Positions 8,163 through 41,536 of a DNA stretch of 41,568 bases are shown here, piece by piece (within the stretch, counting starts at the first letter, position 1; the number at the start of each line of letters is the position of its first letter). Position numbers and translations under genes: made by a program. Under the pieces are notes generated by a model. The model was given only the letters and a program-made list of their open reading frames with translations. It did not search any database and was not told the origin of the DNA. The stretch spans positions 1 to 41,568 of the forward strand of contig JAJFFW010000128.1 of the NCBI GenBank assembly GCA_021776435.1, in the 5' to 3' direction. The stretch comes from Parvularculaceae bacterium. GTDB lineage: Bacteria > Pseudomonadota > Alphaproteobacteria > Caulobacterales > Parvularculaceae.

Positions 8163-8262
8163 CAATCATCCCCTCATGCAAACTCCGTAATTTTGGTAAC
8201 TTTCACGGAGTTTCGGCGTTTCAAGACACAACTAAACGCCTGAGCGCATCGATTCGTTAGGC

Positions 8263-8625
8263 TTATCTAGCCTTTTTCTTGGTGGCTTTGCGCTTAGTCG
8301 CCTTTTTCTTGGTGGCTTTGCGCTTAGTCGCCTTCTTCTTGGTGGCTTTGCGCTTAGTCGCCTTTTTCTTGGTAGCTTTGCGCTTAGTCGCCTTCTTCTT
8401 GGTGGCTTTGCGCTTAGTCGCCTTTTTCTTGGTAGCTTTGCGCTTAGTCGCCTTCTTCTTGGTGGCTTTGCGCTTAGTCGTTTTCTTAGCAGCTTTCCGC
8501 TTTACGGTACGCTTGGCAGTTTTCTTCGCTGCCTTTTTCTTAGTCGTGCGCTTTGTAGCCGCTTTCTTCTTTGTAGCTTTTTTCTTGGTAGCTTTTTTCT
8601 TAGTCGATTTGCGTTTGACCGCCAT
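8263..8625 (-). CDS. Lysine-rich histone H1-like (AlgP/Hc-type) DNA-binding protein
   Basis: 120 aa made almost only of Lys, Ala, Thr and Arg, with no globular domain. Residues 1-50 are irregular KKKATKKKAA runs; residues about 49-118 are seven copies of the decapeptide KRKATKKKAT. Such tails resemble eukaryotic H1 C-termini and bacterial AlgP/Hc proteins, and are expected to bind and condense DNA nonspecifically. The ATG at 8625 has a strong GGAGGT site 6 nt upstream. The next gene on this strand upstream is ssb, and uvrA nearby carries a similar tail, suggesting a local theme of DNA handling (inference). Low complexity means its length probably varies between strains. Confidence 0.85.
   Translation of the reverse strand: MAVKRKSTKKKATKKKATKKKAATKRTTKKKAAKKTAKRTVKRKAAKKTTKRKATKKKATKRKATKKKATKRKATKKKATKRKATKKKATKRKATKKKATKRKATKKKATKRKATKKKAR
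8271..8480. repeat. Seven 30-bp tandem repeats inside the H1-like gene
   Basis: Seven contiguous 30-bp units (8271-8300 to 8451-8480) encode the decapeptide repeat. Units 3-7 alternate two variants at two positions (CTTCTT/TTTTTC and GGTGGC/GGTAGC), which shows a 60-bp higher-order unit and thus recent expansion by slippage or unequal recombination. Confidence 0.95.
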
Positions 8626-8748
8626 GGTCTTACCTCCGAATCACGATTCGAAAGTCTAATCATAAATCAATTTAATAAAAAAGTATTGCATATGCAGAGA
8701 TCAGAGCGTCCGCATCCGCATTTTTTTCACTTTTTAGCTTTTTTATGA
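8626..8748 (-). promoter_or_regulatory. AT-rich promoter region of the H1-like gene with paired GANTC sites
   Basis: The 123-bp gap between ssb and the H1-like gene is strongly AT-rich around 8655-8690 and carries two GANTC sites (GAATC 8638-8642 and GATTC 8645-8649) just upstream of the ribosome-binding site. GANTC is the CcrM methylation motif of many alphaproteobacteria and is enriched in GcrA-dependent promoters. Exact -35/-10 boxes are not assignable by eye. Confidence 0.35.
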
Positions 8749-12534: not shown

Positions 12535-12670
12535 GTAGGGCGGGCGGAGCCCGGCGAAAGCCGGGCGATACCCGCCAATGCGGCGTTTGCAACGGACACG
12601 GAATGGCGGGTATCGGCCTCATGGCCTCCACCCGCCCTACAATTTTCAATCAACCCGGGCTACGCTTGCT
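12535..12670. repeat. Palindromic intergenic repeat, family A, between uvrA and the channel gene
   Basis: Starts GTAGGGCGGG (12535-12544) and closes with the inverse CCCGCCCTAC (12631-12640), with inner hairpins GCCCGGC/GCCGGGC and ATACCCGCCA/TGGCGGGTAT. A trailing segment to 12670 (ending CTACGCTTGCT) is repeated after the channel gene. It fills the 189-bp gap after uvrA together with about 50 bp of leader for the next gene. Confidence 0.85.
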
Positions 12671-12720: not shown

Positions 12721-13572
12721 TTGAGGCAAAAGATTTACGATATCTTGGAAGGTAACACACCGTTTGGACGGTGGGTCAATGCCTTCATCATGCTAGTTAT
12801 TGTACTGAGCTTTCTTTCGCTTGTCTTAGAGTCCATCGATCCGCTTGGGGATAAATACGGCTTCCTCTTTTACGTCTTTGAGGTCGGAGCCATTGCGATT
12901 TTCACCGTCGAATACGTCTTTCGCCTCTGGTCCTGCACCGCAGATAAGCGGTTCGCTCACCCCATTAAAGGGCGGCTGAAGTTTGCGATTAAATTCTTCA
13001 GTGCCATTGATCTGCTTGCGATTCTCCCGTTTTATCTTTCCTTTTTGGTTCCTGGCTTGGATCTGCGCGCGCTGCGCTTGTTTCGGCTGCTCAGAGTCTT
13101 CAAGCTTTTGCGTCACTTCGAGGCTGCAGCGATTTTGCCGGAGGTGGTCAGTCGTAAGCGGCAGGAACTCATCATGACCTTCAGCCTCGTGCTCGTTTTG
13201 CTGCTGATTTCGGCAAGCCTCGTCTTCATGGCTGAGCATGGGAAACAGCCTGACAAATTTTCGAACATCCCGGCGGCTATGTGGTGGGCCGTCGCGACAT
13301 TGTCTACGGTGGGCTATGGCGACATGGCTCCGATCACGCCCTTAGGGCGCATATTGGGCAGTGTGGTTGCGCTGCTCGGAATTGGCTTCTTTGCCCTACC
13401 GGCCGGCATTCTAGCTCAAGGCCTGAACGAACTCGTTGAGGAACGAGCAGCTCAGAAAAAAATAAACCCGGAGGCTGAGACAGCTTCGCTCAAAGGACCC
13501 TCGGCGGCTGAACGCCGATGTCCCCACTGCGGTCGCACCTTGCAGGGAGACGAAAGCAAAAGCAAATCGTAG
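12721..13572 (+). CDS. Voltage-gated potassium channel-type ion transporter
   Basis: 283 aa, six membrane segments. S1-S3 lie at about 18-40, 50-70 and 90-113. S4 is the Arg/Lys ladder in DLRALRLFRLLRVFKLLR (about 118-135). S5 is about 150-172, then the pore helix and K+ selectivity filter TLSTVGYGD (about 193-201), and S6 about 210-235. This is a Kv-like subunit acting as a tetramer in the inner membrane. The C-terminus carries a CPHCG pair (half a zinc-ribbon) after a charged stretch. The start is TTG at 12721 with GGGGA upstream; a nearby ATG frame closes at once. The gene is bracketed by 92-bp near-identical direct repeats. Gating stimulus is not predictable. Confidence 0.92.
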   Translation: MRQKIYDILEGNTPFGRWVNAFIMLVIVLSFLSLVLESIDPLGDKYGFLFYVFEVGAIAIFTVEYVFRLWSCTADKRFAHPIKGRLKFAIKFFSAIDLLAILPFYLSFLVPGLDLRALRLFRLLRVFKLLRHFEAAAILPEVVSRKRQELIMTFSLVLVLLLISASLVFMAEHGKQPDKFSNIPAAMWWAVATLSTVGYGDMAPITPLGRILGSVVALLGIGFFALPAGILAQGLNELVEERAAQKKINPEAETASLKGPSAAERRCPHCGRTLQGDESKSKS

Positions 13573-13576
13573 CCAT

Positions 13577-13668
13577 TGCGGCGTTTGCAACGGACACGGA
13601 ATGGCGGGTATCGGCCTCGCGGCCTCCACCCGCCCTACAATTTCGAATCAACCCGGGCTACGCTTGCT
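13577..13668. repeat. Second copy of the 92-bp repeat flanking the channel gene
   Basis: 88 of 92 positions match 12579-12670 in the same orientation (by-eye count), starting 4 bp after the channel stop codon. It contains the right half of family A (TGGCGGGTATCGGC through CCCGCCCTAC). Confidence 0.9.
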
Positions 13669-13670
13669 TT

Positions 13671-13815
13671 GTCAAACGGGGACGTGCCGTGCATCGGCTT
13701 TATGGCCTCCGTATGCTCAACAAACCATCCCTGTCATTCCGGGGCGATCTGTAGGATCGAACCCGGAAACCAGCAAGCGTAGGGCGGGTTGAGCGCCAGC
13801 GATACCCGTCGCCTT
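13671..13815. repeat. Composite repeat: 103-bp unit copy 1 plus family A half
   Basis: 13671-13773 is the first of three copies of a unit beginning GTCAAACGGGGACGTGCCG and ending in the left half of family B (GTCATTCCGGGGCGATCTG, CCCGGAAACCAG). It is followed by a half family A copy (GTAGGGCGGG at 13779, then ATACCCG). The right half of family B is missing here. Confidence 0.85.
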
Positions 13816-13816
13816 T

Positions 13817-13975
13817 GTCAAACGGGGACGTGCCGTGCATCGGCTTTATGGCCTCCGTATGCTCTACAAACCATCCCTGTCATTCCGGGGCGCCGCGCAG
13901 CAGCGAACCCGGAAACCAGAAGCTGAGTCAGCAGGCTGGATCCCGGGTTCCGCCTCACGGCGGTCCCGGAATGAC
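13817..13975. repeat. Composite repeat: unit copy 2 with complete family B palindrome
   Basis: 13817-13919 repeats the 103-bp unit. The family B palindrome is complete at 13879-13975: GTCATTCCGGGG opens and CCCGGAATGAC closes it, with a central CTGGATCCCGGGTTCC. Confidence 0.85.
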
Positions 13976-14006
13976 AATGGGCGTTGGTGAAAAACAGAAG
14001 CTCGCG

Positions 14007-14212
14007 CTGGATTCCGGGTTCCTTGCTTCGCGCGGCCCCGGAATGACAACGGGTGTCGCTTAAGGAAAGTCAGCGGGCTGGATCCCGGGTTCGGCCTTCG
14101 GCCGCCCCGGGATGACAAGCCACCGCTTCGCCGTAGGGCGGGCCTTGGCCCGCCAATGATTTACAGGCGGCAATGTGTTGGAAATGGCGGGCTCCACCCT
14201 CCCCGCAAACCA
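14007..14212. repeat. Partial family B copies and a family A variant
   Basis: 14007-14049 and 14072-14118 are right halves of family B (CTGGATTCCGGGTTCC ... CCCCGGAATGAC and CTGGATCCCGGGTTCGG ... CCCGGGATGACA). 14131-14212 is a family A variant (GTAGGGCGGGCC ... GGCCCGCCA, then GGCGGGCTCCACCC). No coding frame is supported here. Confidence 0.75.
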
Positions 14213-14215
14213 TTT

Positions 14216-14313
14216 GTCATTCCGGGGCGATCTGTAGGATCGAACCCGGAAACCAGAAACGGAGTCATCAAGGCTGGATCCCGGGTCCCGCCTAATGGCG
14301 GCCCCGGAATGAC
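14216..14313. repeat. Family B palindrome immediately 3' of the GIY-YIG gene
   Basis: Complete copy, GTCATTCCGGGGCGATCTG to CCCCGGAATGAC. The conserved trailing AATGGGCGT reaches 14322, the last base of the GIY-YIG stop codon, so repeat and gene abut. The hairpin may also act as a 3' stabiliser or terminator for that gene (inference). Confidence 0.85.
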
Positions 14314-14321
14314 AATGGGCG

Positions 14322-14615
14322 TCACTGATTGAGCGTCAGATAGAGATCGTTCCAGTCCGGATTAACGGATTCGATCAGTTCAAGCTTCCACTTGCGCCGC
14401 CATTTCTTGAGCTCCTTTTCGCGCGCGATGGCGTATCGCACGTCGTCGAAGGTTTCGTAATAGACGAGCGTCCTGATGCCGTATTTGCTCGTGAACATGG
14501 AGCCGCGGCCTTCCCTGTGTGCAAATGTGCGGTCGCCGATGTCATTTGTGACGCCGATATAGAGCGTGCCGTTTCGTTTGCTTGCAAGAATGTAGACGTA
14601 ATAGGTCTTCCGCAT
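14322..14615 (-). CDS. Small GIY-YIG domain nuclease-like protein
   Basis: 97 aa, one GIY-YIG domain. The two strands YYVYILAS and LYIGVT at about 5-22 form the GIY-YIG pair, followed by the catalytic Arg region TNDIGDRTFAHREG and the metal-binding Glu in AIAREKELKKWRRKWK. The tail NPDWNDLYLTL is typical of the stand-alone YhbQ/UPF0213-like group, which includes many small proteins without known function. There is no DNA-specificity module. The ribosome-binding site is weak. The gene is enclosed on both sides by family B palindromes, 2 bp and 40 bp away, inside a 1.5-kb repeat cluster; it could be the nuclease that spreads them or only a passenger. Confidence 0.88.
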   Translation of the reverse strand: MRKTYYVYILASKRNGTLYIGVTNDIGDRTFAHREGRGSMFTSKYGIRTLVYYETFDDVRYAIAREKELKKWRRKWKLELIESVNPDWNDLYLTLNQ

Positions 14616-14655
14616 CCGGCTGTCTTAGCGATTCCTATCTTCATTGCACAGTATT

Positions 14656-14751
14656 GTCATTCCGGGGCGATCTGTAGGATCGAACCCGGAAACCAGAAGC
14701 TGAGTCAGCAGGCTGGATCCCGGGTTCCGGCTTCGCCGGCCCCGGAATGAC
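14656..14751. repeat. Family B palindrome 5' of the GIY-YIG gene
   Basis: Complete copy in the same orientation as 14216-14313, differing mainly in the central and right-hand loop. It starts 40 bp upstream of the GIY-YIG ATG and ends with the same AATGGGCGT tail. Confidence 0.85.
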
Positions 14752-14780
14752 AATGGGCGTTGGGGAAAAACCGAAGCAAG

Positions 14781-15127
14781 CGTAGGGCGGGTTGAGCGCA
14801 AGCGATACCCGCCGCCTTTGTCAAACGGGGACGTGCCGTGCATCGGCTTTATGGCCTCCGTATGCTCAACAAACCATCCCTGTCATTCCGGGGCGATCTG
14901 TAGGATCGAACCCGGAAACCAGAAGCTGAGTCAGCAGGCTGGATCCCGGGTTCCGACTTCGTCAGCCCCGGGATGACACGTGAAGTGGGTTCCGGTTTTC
15001 GACCGGCCCCGGAATGACAATGTGGGAGGATTCCGGCTGCGCGGGCCCCCGGGATGGCAACGGGCCCAGTTGGAGGAAAGTCAGCAGCCATGGTTATCGC
15101 CGTAGGGCGGGCCTTGGCCCGCCATTC
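14781..15127. repeat. Repeat block: family A half, unit copy 3, family B, partial copies
   Basis: 14781-14817 is a family A half (GTAGGGCGGGTTGAGCG). 14820-14922 is the third copy of the 103-bp unit, nearly identical to 13671-13773. 14882-14977 is a full family B. 14980-15060 holds two right-half remnants (CCCCGGAATGACAATG, CCCCCGGGATGG). 15100-15127 is a short family A hairpin (GTAGGGCGGGCCTTGGCCCGCC). The 526-bp gap 14616-15141 contains nothing else. Confidence 0.8.
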
Positions 15128-15867: not shown

Positions 15868-15910
15868 TCCATCCTTCGAGGGCCGCTGCGCGGCCACCTT
15901 AGGATGAGGG
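15868..15910. repeat. Family C palindrome fragment near the parC 3' end
   Basis: CCATCCTTCGAGG, a GGCCGCTGCGCGGCC core and TTAGGATGAGG align with the centre and right arm of the element inside uvrA. It lies in the 238-bp gap 15703-15940, which shows no gene. Confidence 0.65.
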
Positions 15911-15940
15911 CTGAAGTTTTTTGAAAAGCCGACCCAGCCC

Positions 15941-20286: not shown

Positions 20287-20409
20287 GTCATTCCGGGGCG
20301 ACCGTCAGGTCGAACCCGGAATCTATTCCGCCCTCCTCACCGCTTGCGCCTGCGGCAGTATCAGCGGAGTGGATTCCGGATCGGCGCATTCCGCGCCGTC
20401 CGGAATGAC
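20287..20409. repeat. Diverged family B palindrome between the MBL gene and era
   Basis: Opens GTCATTCCGGGGCGACC and closes GTCCGGAATGAC, about 123 bp, with an inner GGTCGAACCCGG. It is longer and more diverged in the middle than the copies near 14 kb. A stray CCGGGATGAC lies at about 20437. The 249-bp gap has no gene. Confidence 0.75.
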
Positions 20410-38722: not shown

Positions 38723-40192
38723 TTAGTCAATCCCGAGTTTCTTCTTCAAAATCTCGTTGACCGCCTGGGGATTGGCCTTGCCGCCGCTCAGCTTCATGGT
38801 CTGGCCGACGAACCAGCCAAATGTTTTTGGCTTTTCCCTGACCTGTTCAACCTGTTTCGGATTGGCGGCGATAATCTCGTCAATAATTTTTTCGATGGCG
38901 CCGGTATCCGTCACCTGTTTGAGGCCGCGCTTTTCAACAATATCCGCCGGATTGCCCGCTTCCTCGCTGTTAAACATCAGAGCAAAGACATCCTTGGCGA
39001 TCTTGCCAGAAATCGTTTGATCTTTGATCAGATCGATAAGCTGGCCGAGTTGATTTGCGCTGATCGGGCTATCGCCGATTTCTATATTCTCTTTATTGAG
39101 AGCGCCGAACAGCTCGCCCGTAACCCAGTTGGAGGCAAGTTTGCCATCGCGCCCTTTCGCAACATTTTCAAAAAATGCGGCTTTCCTTTTATCCGCAGCA
39201 AGAACAGCGGCGTCATAGAGCGACAATCCATACTCCTCCATGAAGCGATGTTTCTTGGCGTCCGGCAATTCCGGCAAGCTGGCCCTGATCTCTTCAACCC
39301 AGATTGGGTCAAGTTTCAATGGCAACAGATCCGGATCGGGGAAATACCGATAATCATGCGCGTCTTCCTTTGAGCGCATAGTCCGCGTCTCGCCGGTCTC
39401 GGCATTAAACAAGAGCGTTTCCTGATCAATCTTTCCACCCGCCTCCAGCACTTCGATCTGGCGGCGCGCTTCATAGTCAATGACCTGACGGACATAGCGA
39501 AGCGAGTTTACGTTCTTCGTTTCGGTTCTTGTTCCCAATTCCTCACCGGGCCGTCGCACCGATACGTTGACGTCGGCGCGCATCGAGCCTTGGTCCATAT
39601 TGCCGTCGCAAGTCCCGAGATAGCGCACAATGGTGCGCAGTTTGGAAAAATAGGCTGCGCCTTCCTCTGCCGAGCGCATTTCCGGTTTTGAGACGATCTC
39701 CATCAGCGCGACGCCGGATCGATTCAGATCCACATAAGATTCCTTGGGCGCCAAATCGTGGATCGACTTGCCGGCGTCCTGCTCAAGATGCAGCCGCTCA
39801 ATACCGATCGTGATGCTTTCCCCACCATCAAGCTCAATTTCGATCGCACCCTCGCCGACGATCGGGTCCTTGTACTGCGAAATCTGATAGCCTTGCGGCA
39901 GGTCCGGATAGAAATAGTTCTTGCGGTCAAAGCGTGACCACAAATTGATTTGGGCGTTGAGGCCAAGCCCGGTGCGCACTGCCTGCTCGACGCAATAGCG
40001 GTTGATCACCGGCAGCATTCCAGGCATCGCCGCATCAACCAAGGAAACATGCTCGTTCGGCCCGGCCCCGTATTCCGCTGATGCTCCGGAAAACAGCTTG
40101 GACTTTGACGATACCTGCGCGTGGACTTCAAGCCCGACCACGACCTCCCAGTCGCCGGTTTCACCCTTGAGCAGTTTCCGTGGTTCGATCAT
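38723..40192 (-). CDS. gatB: Asp-tRNA(Asn)/Glu-tRNA(Gln) amidotransferase subunit B
   Basis: 489 aa, the tRNA-binding and kinase subunit of GatCAB that amidates Glu-tRNA(Gln) or Asp-tRNA(Asn). Seen: [36 protein letters not shown] (signature), [31 protein letters not shown] and the C-terminal YqeY-like domain ([32 protein letters not shown]). The gene at 41524, if gatA, suggests a gat operon interrupted by a hydrolase and a repeat element; gatC is not seen. Confidence 0.97.
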
Positions 40193-40467
40193 AATCTATC
40201 TCTATTATCTGGCTCAATTCTCTGCTTTCAAAGGGTTTTGCCCGCAGCGCGTCGATCACGCAAGCGTTTAAGGAACGTTTGCGATGAATAAGGCGCCTCA
40301 AGCGGAACGCATCGCCTGGCCGCCTCGGAACTGACCGGAACAGGCGACGAGGCCCGATCCGGATAGCGGTTTCAATTGTCAAAGAGCAAAACTGCATCCC
40401 TCACCCGCACCATCCAATCAAGGTGGGCCAAGCAATGAACGAGGGTATGATAAGGCCGCGCCAAAGG

Positions 40468-40541
40468 TGTCGGATAAGTTTTTTTGAAAACACCCTCCAG
40501 CCCTCGCGCCACACGAGCTGGAGCTGTCGGATAAGTTTTTT
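40468..40541. repeat. Direct repeats around a hairpin upstream of gatB
   Basis: TGTCGGATAAGTTTTTT occurs at 40468-40484 (one more T follows) and again at 40525-40541, 57 bp apart in the same orientation. Between them CTCCAG/CTGGAG and CTCG/CGAG form a hairpin. The 600-bp gap 40193-40792 has no gene; besides these and the element at 40571, 40193-40467 shows nothing recognisable. Confidence 0.7.
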
Positions 40542-40570
40542 AAAAAAGAATTTTTCGCGCCCCGGGAGCC

Positions 40571-40795
40571 TAGAGTCTGTTGAGATTCATCCAATGTGTC
40601 ATCCCGGACATTACAACCGTCCGAATTCCTTACGGAATTCGGCGAACGGTTGTTAGATCCGGGATCCAGTGTCGCTTGCTCCGTACACGCTGCTCTGGAT
40701 CCCGGATAGCTCAATTCGCCAACCAAATCAAAGATTTGGAGCAAATTGGCTTCCGGGATGACATTTCTTGATGCTTTGAATCTCAAGAGACTCTA
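40571..40795. mobile_element. Candidate miniature inverted-repeat element (MITE)
   Basis: 225 bp bounded by 19-nt inverted termini, TAGAGTCTGTTGAGATTCA (40571-40589) and its inverse at 40777-40795, 18 of 19 matching. TA at each extreme may be a TA target duplication, as for IS630/Tc1-type elements. Inside lies a nested palindrome GTCATCCCGG ... CCGGGATGAC (related to family B) and GATCCGGGATCCAG/CTGGATCCCGGAT. No transposase. Its left TIR end provides the last base of the neighbouring hydrolase stop codon. Confidence 0.7.
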
Positions 40796-41536
40796 AGGTA
40801 ACGCCCTGTCAATCACCCGCGCGACCGCCGCATGCAGGCGCTTTGGGTATTGCAGCTCCAGATAATGCGTGCCGCCATTGATATGATGGAACTCAGCATG
40901 CGGGTTGTGTTTGAGCCGCGCCATCAGTGCATGGGCATCGCCGCGAGAAACAAGATTATCGAGATCCCCGTGTACGACTTCAACCGGTGCTGTCAGGTTT
41001 TCAAGTCGGTCCAGCAGCGGGCCGATCTGGGTGCGCCTTGCCTCGATTTCAGCCTTTACGCGTTTAACCTGGCCGGGCAATAGCGCACCCACGGACGGCG
41101 CATCGCCAAGCTTTTCAAGAGCGCGAATATAAGGGCGCGGTTCAGTAATCAGTGCAGCGACGGTCACGACGCCTTTGACCTGATCGGGGAAATCAAGCGC
41201 CGATTTCAGCGCCAATTCGCCGCCATAGCTGACGCCCAGAGTGATAATTTTTTTGTCGCTCAGGAACGGTTTGATCGCCGCCACCTGCTCGTCCCAATCG
41301 GTAATCGCCTCGGTATGTCCTTTTCCGAAACCGGGGCGCGAGATCACCACCACTTCAAGGCCCGGCGGCGCATGGCTTAGAAATCGATGGAACAACCGCT
41401 TACGACACGGCGTACCCGGAAAGACAACCAGCCGCCAGTCCCCATCCGCTCCGGCAACATAGGCGTCAGTCTCTAGCGGCGTCGATAACGGCGCGGTGTA
41501 GGTGATTTCACGATAGGTGCGGGTCACGCCCACCAT
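40793..41536 (-). CDS. Alpha/beta hydrolase fold protein
   Basis: 247 aa. Oxyanion region VVFPGTPC, nucleophile Ser in LGVSYGGELAL (about 98-102), acid in VVHGDLDNLV (about 190) and His in NGGTHYLELQYP (about 223). Cytoplasmic; substrate unknown. The ATG at 41536 overlaps the preceding gene by 13 nt. The stop TAG (40795-40793) is formed by the TA and first G of the adjacent inverted-repeat element, so the original C-terminus may have been slightly different. Confidence 0.88.
   Translation of the reverse strand: MVGVTRTYREITYTAPLSTPLETDAYVAGADGDWRLVVFPGTPCRKRLFHRFLSHAPPGLEVVVISRPGFGKGHTEAITDWDEQVAAIKPFLSDKKIITLGVSYGGELALKSALDFPDQVKGVVTVAALITEPRPYIRALEKLGDAPSVGALLPGQVKRVKAEIEARRTQIGPLLDRLENLTAPVEVVHGDLDNLVSRGDAHALMARLKHNPHAEFHHINGGTHYLELQYPKRLHAAVARVIDRALP

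Follow-up and report, generated by a model that had tools for sequence, protein, structure and literature searches.

A predicted IS5-type miniature element with a CGTC-REP-like palindrome core at the stop codon of an alpha/beta hydrolase gene in a Parvularculaceae genome

The stop codon of an alpha/beta hydrolase gene in the 41,568-nucleotide stretch of Parvularculaceae DNA analyzed here (hereafter the window) is shared with the terminus of a 225-bp repeat. This arrangement raises the questions of what the element is, how it may have reached the site and whether its insertion changed the protein. An earlier note, made from the letters of the window, had reported the element, its inverted ends and the shared stop codon, all of which were found as described. 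The element occupies positions 40571–40795 with a TA outermost on both sides. Its 19-nt inverted ends (TIRs; 40571–40589 and 40777–40795, reading TAGAGTCTGTTGAGATTCA and TGAATCTCAAGAGACTCTA) are complementary at 18 of 19 positions, and the hydrolase TAG at 40793–40795 is composed of the TA and the first TIR base (G). The features of the locus are the following.

38723–40192, minus strand: gatB, the next gene downstream, which adjoins or overlaps the hydrolase gene in several relatives
40571–40572, no strand: TA target duplication, left copy
40573–40589, plus strand: left TIR GAGTCTGTTGAGATTCA, an IS5-family (IS427-like) insertion sequence end
40777–40793, minus strand: right TIR GAGTCTCTTGAGATTCA
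40794–40795, no strand: TA target duplication, right copy, which gives the hydrolase stop codon its first two bases
40793–40795, minus strand: TAG stop of the hydrolase, with the G from the TIR; the empty site also has TAG
40793–41536, minus strand: alpha/beta hydrolase of 247 amino acids, whose C-terminus is unchanged by the insertion

The 17-nt end pattern, allowing up to three mismatches, has exactly two matches in the 41.6-kb window and both are the ends of the element (0.22 expected by chance; two matches reached in 3 of 100 shuffles). The two TIRs differ by one base. The interior folds much better than shuffled sequences (z = −12 and −13, one value per strand; none of 200 shuffles as good). 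The element is non-coding, its mechanically called ORFs being short frames that run across the palindromes, and its size below 500 bp and lack of a transposase are those of a MITE. A search of Rfam at the gathering score gave no match for the element, which rules out a known RNA family (the sole match of the window is a tRNA). Nothing similar to the element was found in plasmid and phage collections and an origin from either was dropped.

The earlier note had proposed that the insertion truncated the hydrolase or changed its end. Such a reading, in which the element now provides a new C-terminus or stop, draws on the physical overlap of the stop codon with the element and on the 9–27 additional residues present in many orthologues. 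It was confronted with an empty site reconstructed from the flanks that the window itself provides (no natural empty site was seen at this locus in a close relative). The flanks rejoined over one TA read ...GCG TTA CCT TAG GCT CCC, coding for a protein that terminates ...DRALP, and the stop (CCT-TAG) is identical with or without the element. The orthologues (50–67% identity) lack the element. Both hydrolase copies of one related genome (G049) end at the same residue as the window's protein or one earlier, those of three others (G009, G021 and G052) end within a few residues of it, and orthologues outside G049 end 2–27 residues later. The comparison of C-termini that the earlier note had suggested thus shows the same end residue reached without any element, and its claim about the protein's end does not stand. 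Truncation is ruled out by the rebuilt site and the orthologues to the point of being barely conceivable: the insertion left the hydrolase protein unchanged and is therefore neutral at the protein level.

Since the hydrolase gene often adjoins or overlaps gatB in relatives, the element lengthens an ancestral hydrolase–gatB spacer. Its very stable fold and its position between two genes of the same strand that adjoin or overlap in several relatives would suit a regulatory RNA retained for the expression of gatB, be it a terminator, an RNase III site or an mRNA stabiliser. This role, predicted from sequence features, is rather unlikely because the genes next to copies of the element are unrelated and it overlaps no T-run terminator; a terminator function was dropped on the latter ground. 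The spacer between gatB and the element also features two 26-nt direct repeats GTCGGATAAGTTTTTT(T)GAAAA (40465–40490 and 40522–40547), a third and weaker copy of which is found at 15902–15927.

The identity of the ends was addressed by scanning named genomes for TAGRGTCTGTTGAGATTCA; Alphaproteobacteria predominate among the matches listed. Among those matches, the TIR GRGTCTGTTGAGATTCA with a TA outside bounds 820–854 bp elements in several, mostly alphaproteobacterial, genomes including Bradyrhizobium. The one such element inspected, from Bradyrhizobium, codes for an IS5-family transposase over two reading frames (NF033580; PF13340 + PF13586/PF01609). Miniature versions of 142–470 bp with unrelated interiors are found in Mesorhizobium, Stappia and others, and TA is present at both ends of most copies in other genomes. 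As the TIR is common to full-length IS5-family elements, the window's element is assigned, on sequence grounds, to the non-autonomous IS5-family (IS427-like) MITEs. Published IS427-group elements are 832–865 bp long with mostly 2-bp repeats (PMC3281130). Its members IS1248 and ISPpa2 of Paracoccus (832 bp, 2-bp repeats; PMC3281130) are of like length to the autonomous relatives identified here (820–878 bp). The group also resembles these elements in the 2-bp TA duplication, in the two-frame coding of an IS5-family transposase and in the TIR of the element, while the window's element differs by the lack of a transposase and by carrying a foreign palindrome pair. Note that another TA-bounded miniature repeat (TAGTGTGGTGGATTTGAAGTTCG...) adjoins these elements or is invaded by them at several loci (left flanks of L002, L010, L011 and L015; L206), resulting in nested insertions and apparent end swaps.

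The host draft genome (2.96 Mb in 142 contigs, 98.6% complete) breaks at repeats. Two Pfam searches and an end scan of this draft found no transposase with matching ends; the IS5-type transposase loci identified (C129, C86 and C57) lack these ends and were rejected as partner IS. The missing partner weighs little because the assembly is broken by repeats. The exact TIR is absent from the 40 related genomes searched, so the ends are either recent in this lineage or lost elsewhere. Within the host draft, the search for further copies of the terminus, also advised by the earlier note, gave eight TIR matches at six places, while the element core was counted by searches at about 22 places. Complete copies flanked by TA on both sides, a duplication of the target, are found in contigs C33 and C49; contig ends truncate the copies of C66 and C55, and a single TIR end is found at C80:16613. 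These numbers are undercounts as several contigs break inside the repeat. No two copies of the element are identical, which together with the one-base difference between the TIRs indicates that movement was not recent. The earlier note's view of a mobile miniature element is borne out by the TIRs common with autonomous IS5-family elements, the TA duplication and the several copies.

The interior of the element has a distinct architecture, composed of the following features (none assigned to a strand).

40597–40763: putatively captured core, a head-to-head pair of CGTC-type palindromes whose hairpin loops are enlarged; the outer stem is TGTCATCCCGGA/TCCGGGATGACA; a cloverleaf is possible
40613–40653: hairpin 1, the loop of palindrome unit 1
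40657–40707: central hairpin ATCCGGGATCCAG ... CTGGATCCCGGAT, formed by the inner stem halves and CCAG tails of both units
40709–40752: hairpin 3, the loop of palindrome unit 2

The core reads in the order TGTC-ATCCCGGA...TCCGGGAT-CCAG...CTGG-ATCCCGGA...TCCGGGAT-GACA. Both units have the C/TGTC tag, an 8–9 bp stem starting by AT and the CCA tail of CGTC REPs (PMC3733652), and their orientation is head-to-head (HH) with the tags outside, GTC being found at both outer ends. The 4–5 nt loops of CGTC REPs are replaced by nested hairpins of about 40 nt, which is why the core is named CGTC-REP-like and not a strict member of the family. Shorter loop forms are seen in the copies of relatives. In six diverged copies of the core 95% of the cells are paired, and 14 pairs are changed on both sides relative to 7.9 in shuffles (none of 500 as high). 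There is hardly any variation in the outer and central stems, which could fold equally well as two separate palindromes; the cloverleaf is thus one of two readings.

A covariance model built on the core finds five further copies in the window (E about 1e-4 to 2e-3), namely the repeats that the earlier note had called family B and one additional site (no strand assigned).

13879–13975: family B repeat, a bare copy of the palindrome-pair architecture
14216–14313: family B repeat, same architecture
14656–14751: family B repeat, same architecture
14882–14977: family B repeat, same architecture
20287–20409: further bare copy of the architecture

The nested palindrome akin to family B that the note had recognized in the element is therefore real. 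The architecture was found by the same model in 16 of 60 related genomes, and the 18 copies inspected in these relatives are all bare, none being flanked by a matching IS-like end pair. Some neighboring repeats deserve mention. Two 97-nt copies that are 95% identical (12574–12670 and 13572–13668) lie beside a cluster of bare palindrome pairs (13732–15084) of the window. A mosaic palindrome (L064/L218; G015:C3:184813-184931) is half a GTCATCCCGG unit and half a GTGGATTCCCGC...GCGGGAATGAG unit, showing that a single element can arise from the pairing of unlike units. The 30-bp tandem repeats at 8240–8628 of the window code, on the minus strand, for the lysine-rich KKATKRKT-type tail of a protein that is probably histone-H1-like.

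Most core copies of the host genome are bounded by ends different from those of the window's element (TIR-A). This second end type (TIR-B, TIR GGTCACCGACTCA) is found as TAGGTCACCGACTCA...GTGACCTA; in other genomes from the same class it bounds elements of 871–878 bp that carry IS5-family transposases. Two different IS5-type elements thus provide the ends in which one and the same palindrome pair is packaged within one genome. The copy at C88:255-469 (L008) is a hybrid with one IS5 TIR-A end and one decayed TIR-B end, whose core is inverted relative to the TIR-A arm and flipped at the GTCATCCCGGA arm; this suggests recombination at the GTCATCCCGGA arms. The copies of C26 and C55:1192 lost two hairpins between the ATCCCGGA repeats. 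The palindrome arms appear to serve as recombination joints. In a Hyphomicrobiales MAG, IS5-type MITEs (L087:7220-7383 and L147:3392-3556) carry a different CGTC-type palindrome (CGTCATTCCCGC...GCGGGAATGACG), an apparently independent example of a CGTC palindrome enclosed by IS5 ends.

The 225-bp unit folds as one nested cruciform and bare forms of the palindrome pair are widespread, as would be expected if the whole unit were a single ancestral palindromic repeat, spread by recombination or by a Y1 (RAYT) transposase, with ends that only resemble those of an IS. This is very improbable in view of the exact match of TIR and TA to autonomous IS5 elements and of the same core being found with a different IS5 end pair elsewhere in the genome. 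Furthermore, no Y1 (RAYT) transposase (Y1_Tnp) was found in the host genome: mobilisation by RAYT was dropped, and the core shares with CGTC REPs the lack of a dedicated transposase of this type. The alternative of one mobile element carrying another repeat of shared origin with family B, also raised by the earlier note, is supported by the covariance model matches, by the occurrence of two types of end and by bare copies of the core in relatives.

The explanation that we favor with considerable confidence is that of an IS5-type MITE with a captured palindrome core, inserted into the hydrolase stop without changing the protein. Its 17-bp ends would be recognized in trans, now or formerly, by an IS5-type transposase with CTAG/CTAA as its target, insertion taking place at the TA and duplicating it. 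The interior would be a pre-existing palindrome-pair module captured between IS ends, rather than a decayed transposase, and the same module would have been captured also by the ends of the second IS5-type element. The insertion site of the MITE would have been the TA within the stop codon of the hydrolase itself, where the G at the start of the TIR rebuilds the TAG so that the protein stays unchanged. The insertion may then only alter the mRNA between the hydrolase gene and gatB.

Comparison with known systems places this element between several classes. CGTC REPs are widespread in alphaproteobacteria and were reported to lack a dedicated transposase (PMC3733652). Their HH dimers (Di Nocera et al. 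2013, PMC3733652) share with the core the TGTC/CGTC tag outside, the 8-bp stem starting by AT (ATCCCGGA), the CCA tails inside, the head-to-head pairing and the lack of such a transposase. They differ from it by their 4–5 nt loops, as opposed to nested hairpins of about 40 nt, and unlike the described REPs most copies in the host genome are packaged between IS5-type ends. GTAG REPs provide TAG stops to neighboring ORFs (PMC3733652). The likeness is that a repeat terminus gives the TAG of the adjoining ORF, but it is made by the GTAG tag in these REPs and by the target TA and the first TIR base here, rebuilding a pre-existing stop. QMITE2 of Coxiella burnetii (PMC5896051) is likewise a strongly folding miniature element, and the gene enhC has a copy of it at the 3′ end; its insertion lengthens the protein by 33 residues whereas the hydrolase C-terminus is unchanged. 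Rickettsia palindromic elements (RPE) are also alphaproteobacterial palindromes, of which RPE-4 and RPE-6 are related to CGTC REPs (PMC3733652), but they insert in frame within ORFs while the elements studied here are found at stop codons or between genes.

The stop codon is not a landing site of the hydrolase gene alone. Among 18 copies with both ends, the target is CTA|TAG in nine and CTA|TAA in five; IS5 also prefers CTAG/CTAA targets (PMC5493358). With such a target and a TIR starting by G, insertion into TAG or TAA leaves TAG. In the host genome, TIR-B elements have their TAG precisely at the end of the genes for an E2 acyltransferase, an acyl-CoA ligase and an exonuclease of RNase_T type. 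The E2 acyltransferase is complete, its Pfam domain reaching the last residue (profile 232/232), and the rebuilt stops are TAG for this gene and TAA for the acyl-CoA ligase. In a mirror image of elements supplying host stops, the transposase stop of the second IS5-type element (TIR GGTCACCGACTCA) at L234:1500-1928 and L236:1088-1516 is formed by the flanking TA and the next host base; in L236 an ABC-transporter ATPase gene also ends exactly at the TAG of the element.

At 117 TIR-A element ends of other genomes, an incomplete sample, the longest ORF with 80 codons or more was determined. It ends in the TAG frame at 36 ends and in the other frames at 7 and 9, while background CTAG sites of the same DNA number 101 in the stop frame and 83 and 161 in the other two from a total of 911. 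The excess of the stop frame (36/117 versus 101/911) corresponds to an odds ratio of 3.6 (p = 1e-7). ORFs with a Pfam match at element ends are 21 in the stop frame, the domain being complete in most (SSB ends DDDIPF; CcmB 215/215; Lactamase_B 196/196), and three in other frames, at least two of which are cut inside the domain.

This excess might reflect survival only, disruptive insertions being purged and CTAG being intrinsically common at stops, with no target preference: the CTAR target covers TAG and TAA, and disrupted frames are rarer at element ends (16/117) than at background CTAG sites (244/911). Survival alone may explain much of the excess, and we see this account as evenly balanced between true and false. 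Against it, the stop frame, when set against ends with no long ORF, is still about three-fold enriched over background CTAG sites (36:65 versus 101:566; p = 4e-6), which suggests more than survival; the incomplete sampling, and a class with no long ORF that only roughly represents intergenic DNA, keep this enrichment from being decisive. No report of a stop codon preference of IS5-type elements was found in the open-access literature, to which the search was confined.

Two results of this work are the most useful: IS5-type ends are found in excess at intact stop codons, and CGTC-type palindromes are packaged in two kinds of end. An insertion that seemed to damage a gene turns out harmless, as the choice of target and the first TIR base keep the host stop codon, and this is a simple rule for how a very common insertion sequence group persists in gene-dense genomes. 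The finding also bears on the open question of CGTC palindromes, widespread in alphaproteobacteria and here packaged in two IS5-type ends; judging from the sequences, they could plausibly spread by being packaged in IS5 ends. More broadly, we propose tentatively, and at somewhat less than even confidence, that IS5/IS427-type elements and their MITEs may use stop codons as safe landing sites, the CTAR target and G-first TIR always leaving TAG, and that by packaging CGTC palindromes they may give the transposase-less CGTC REPs their missing route of spread.
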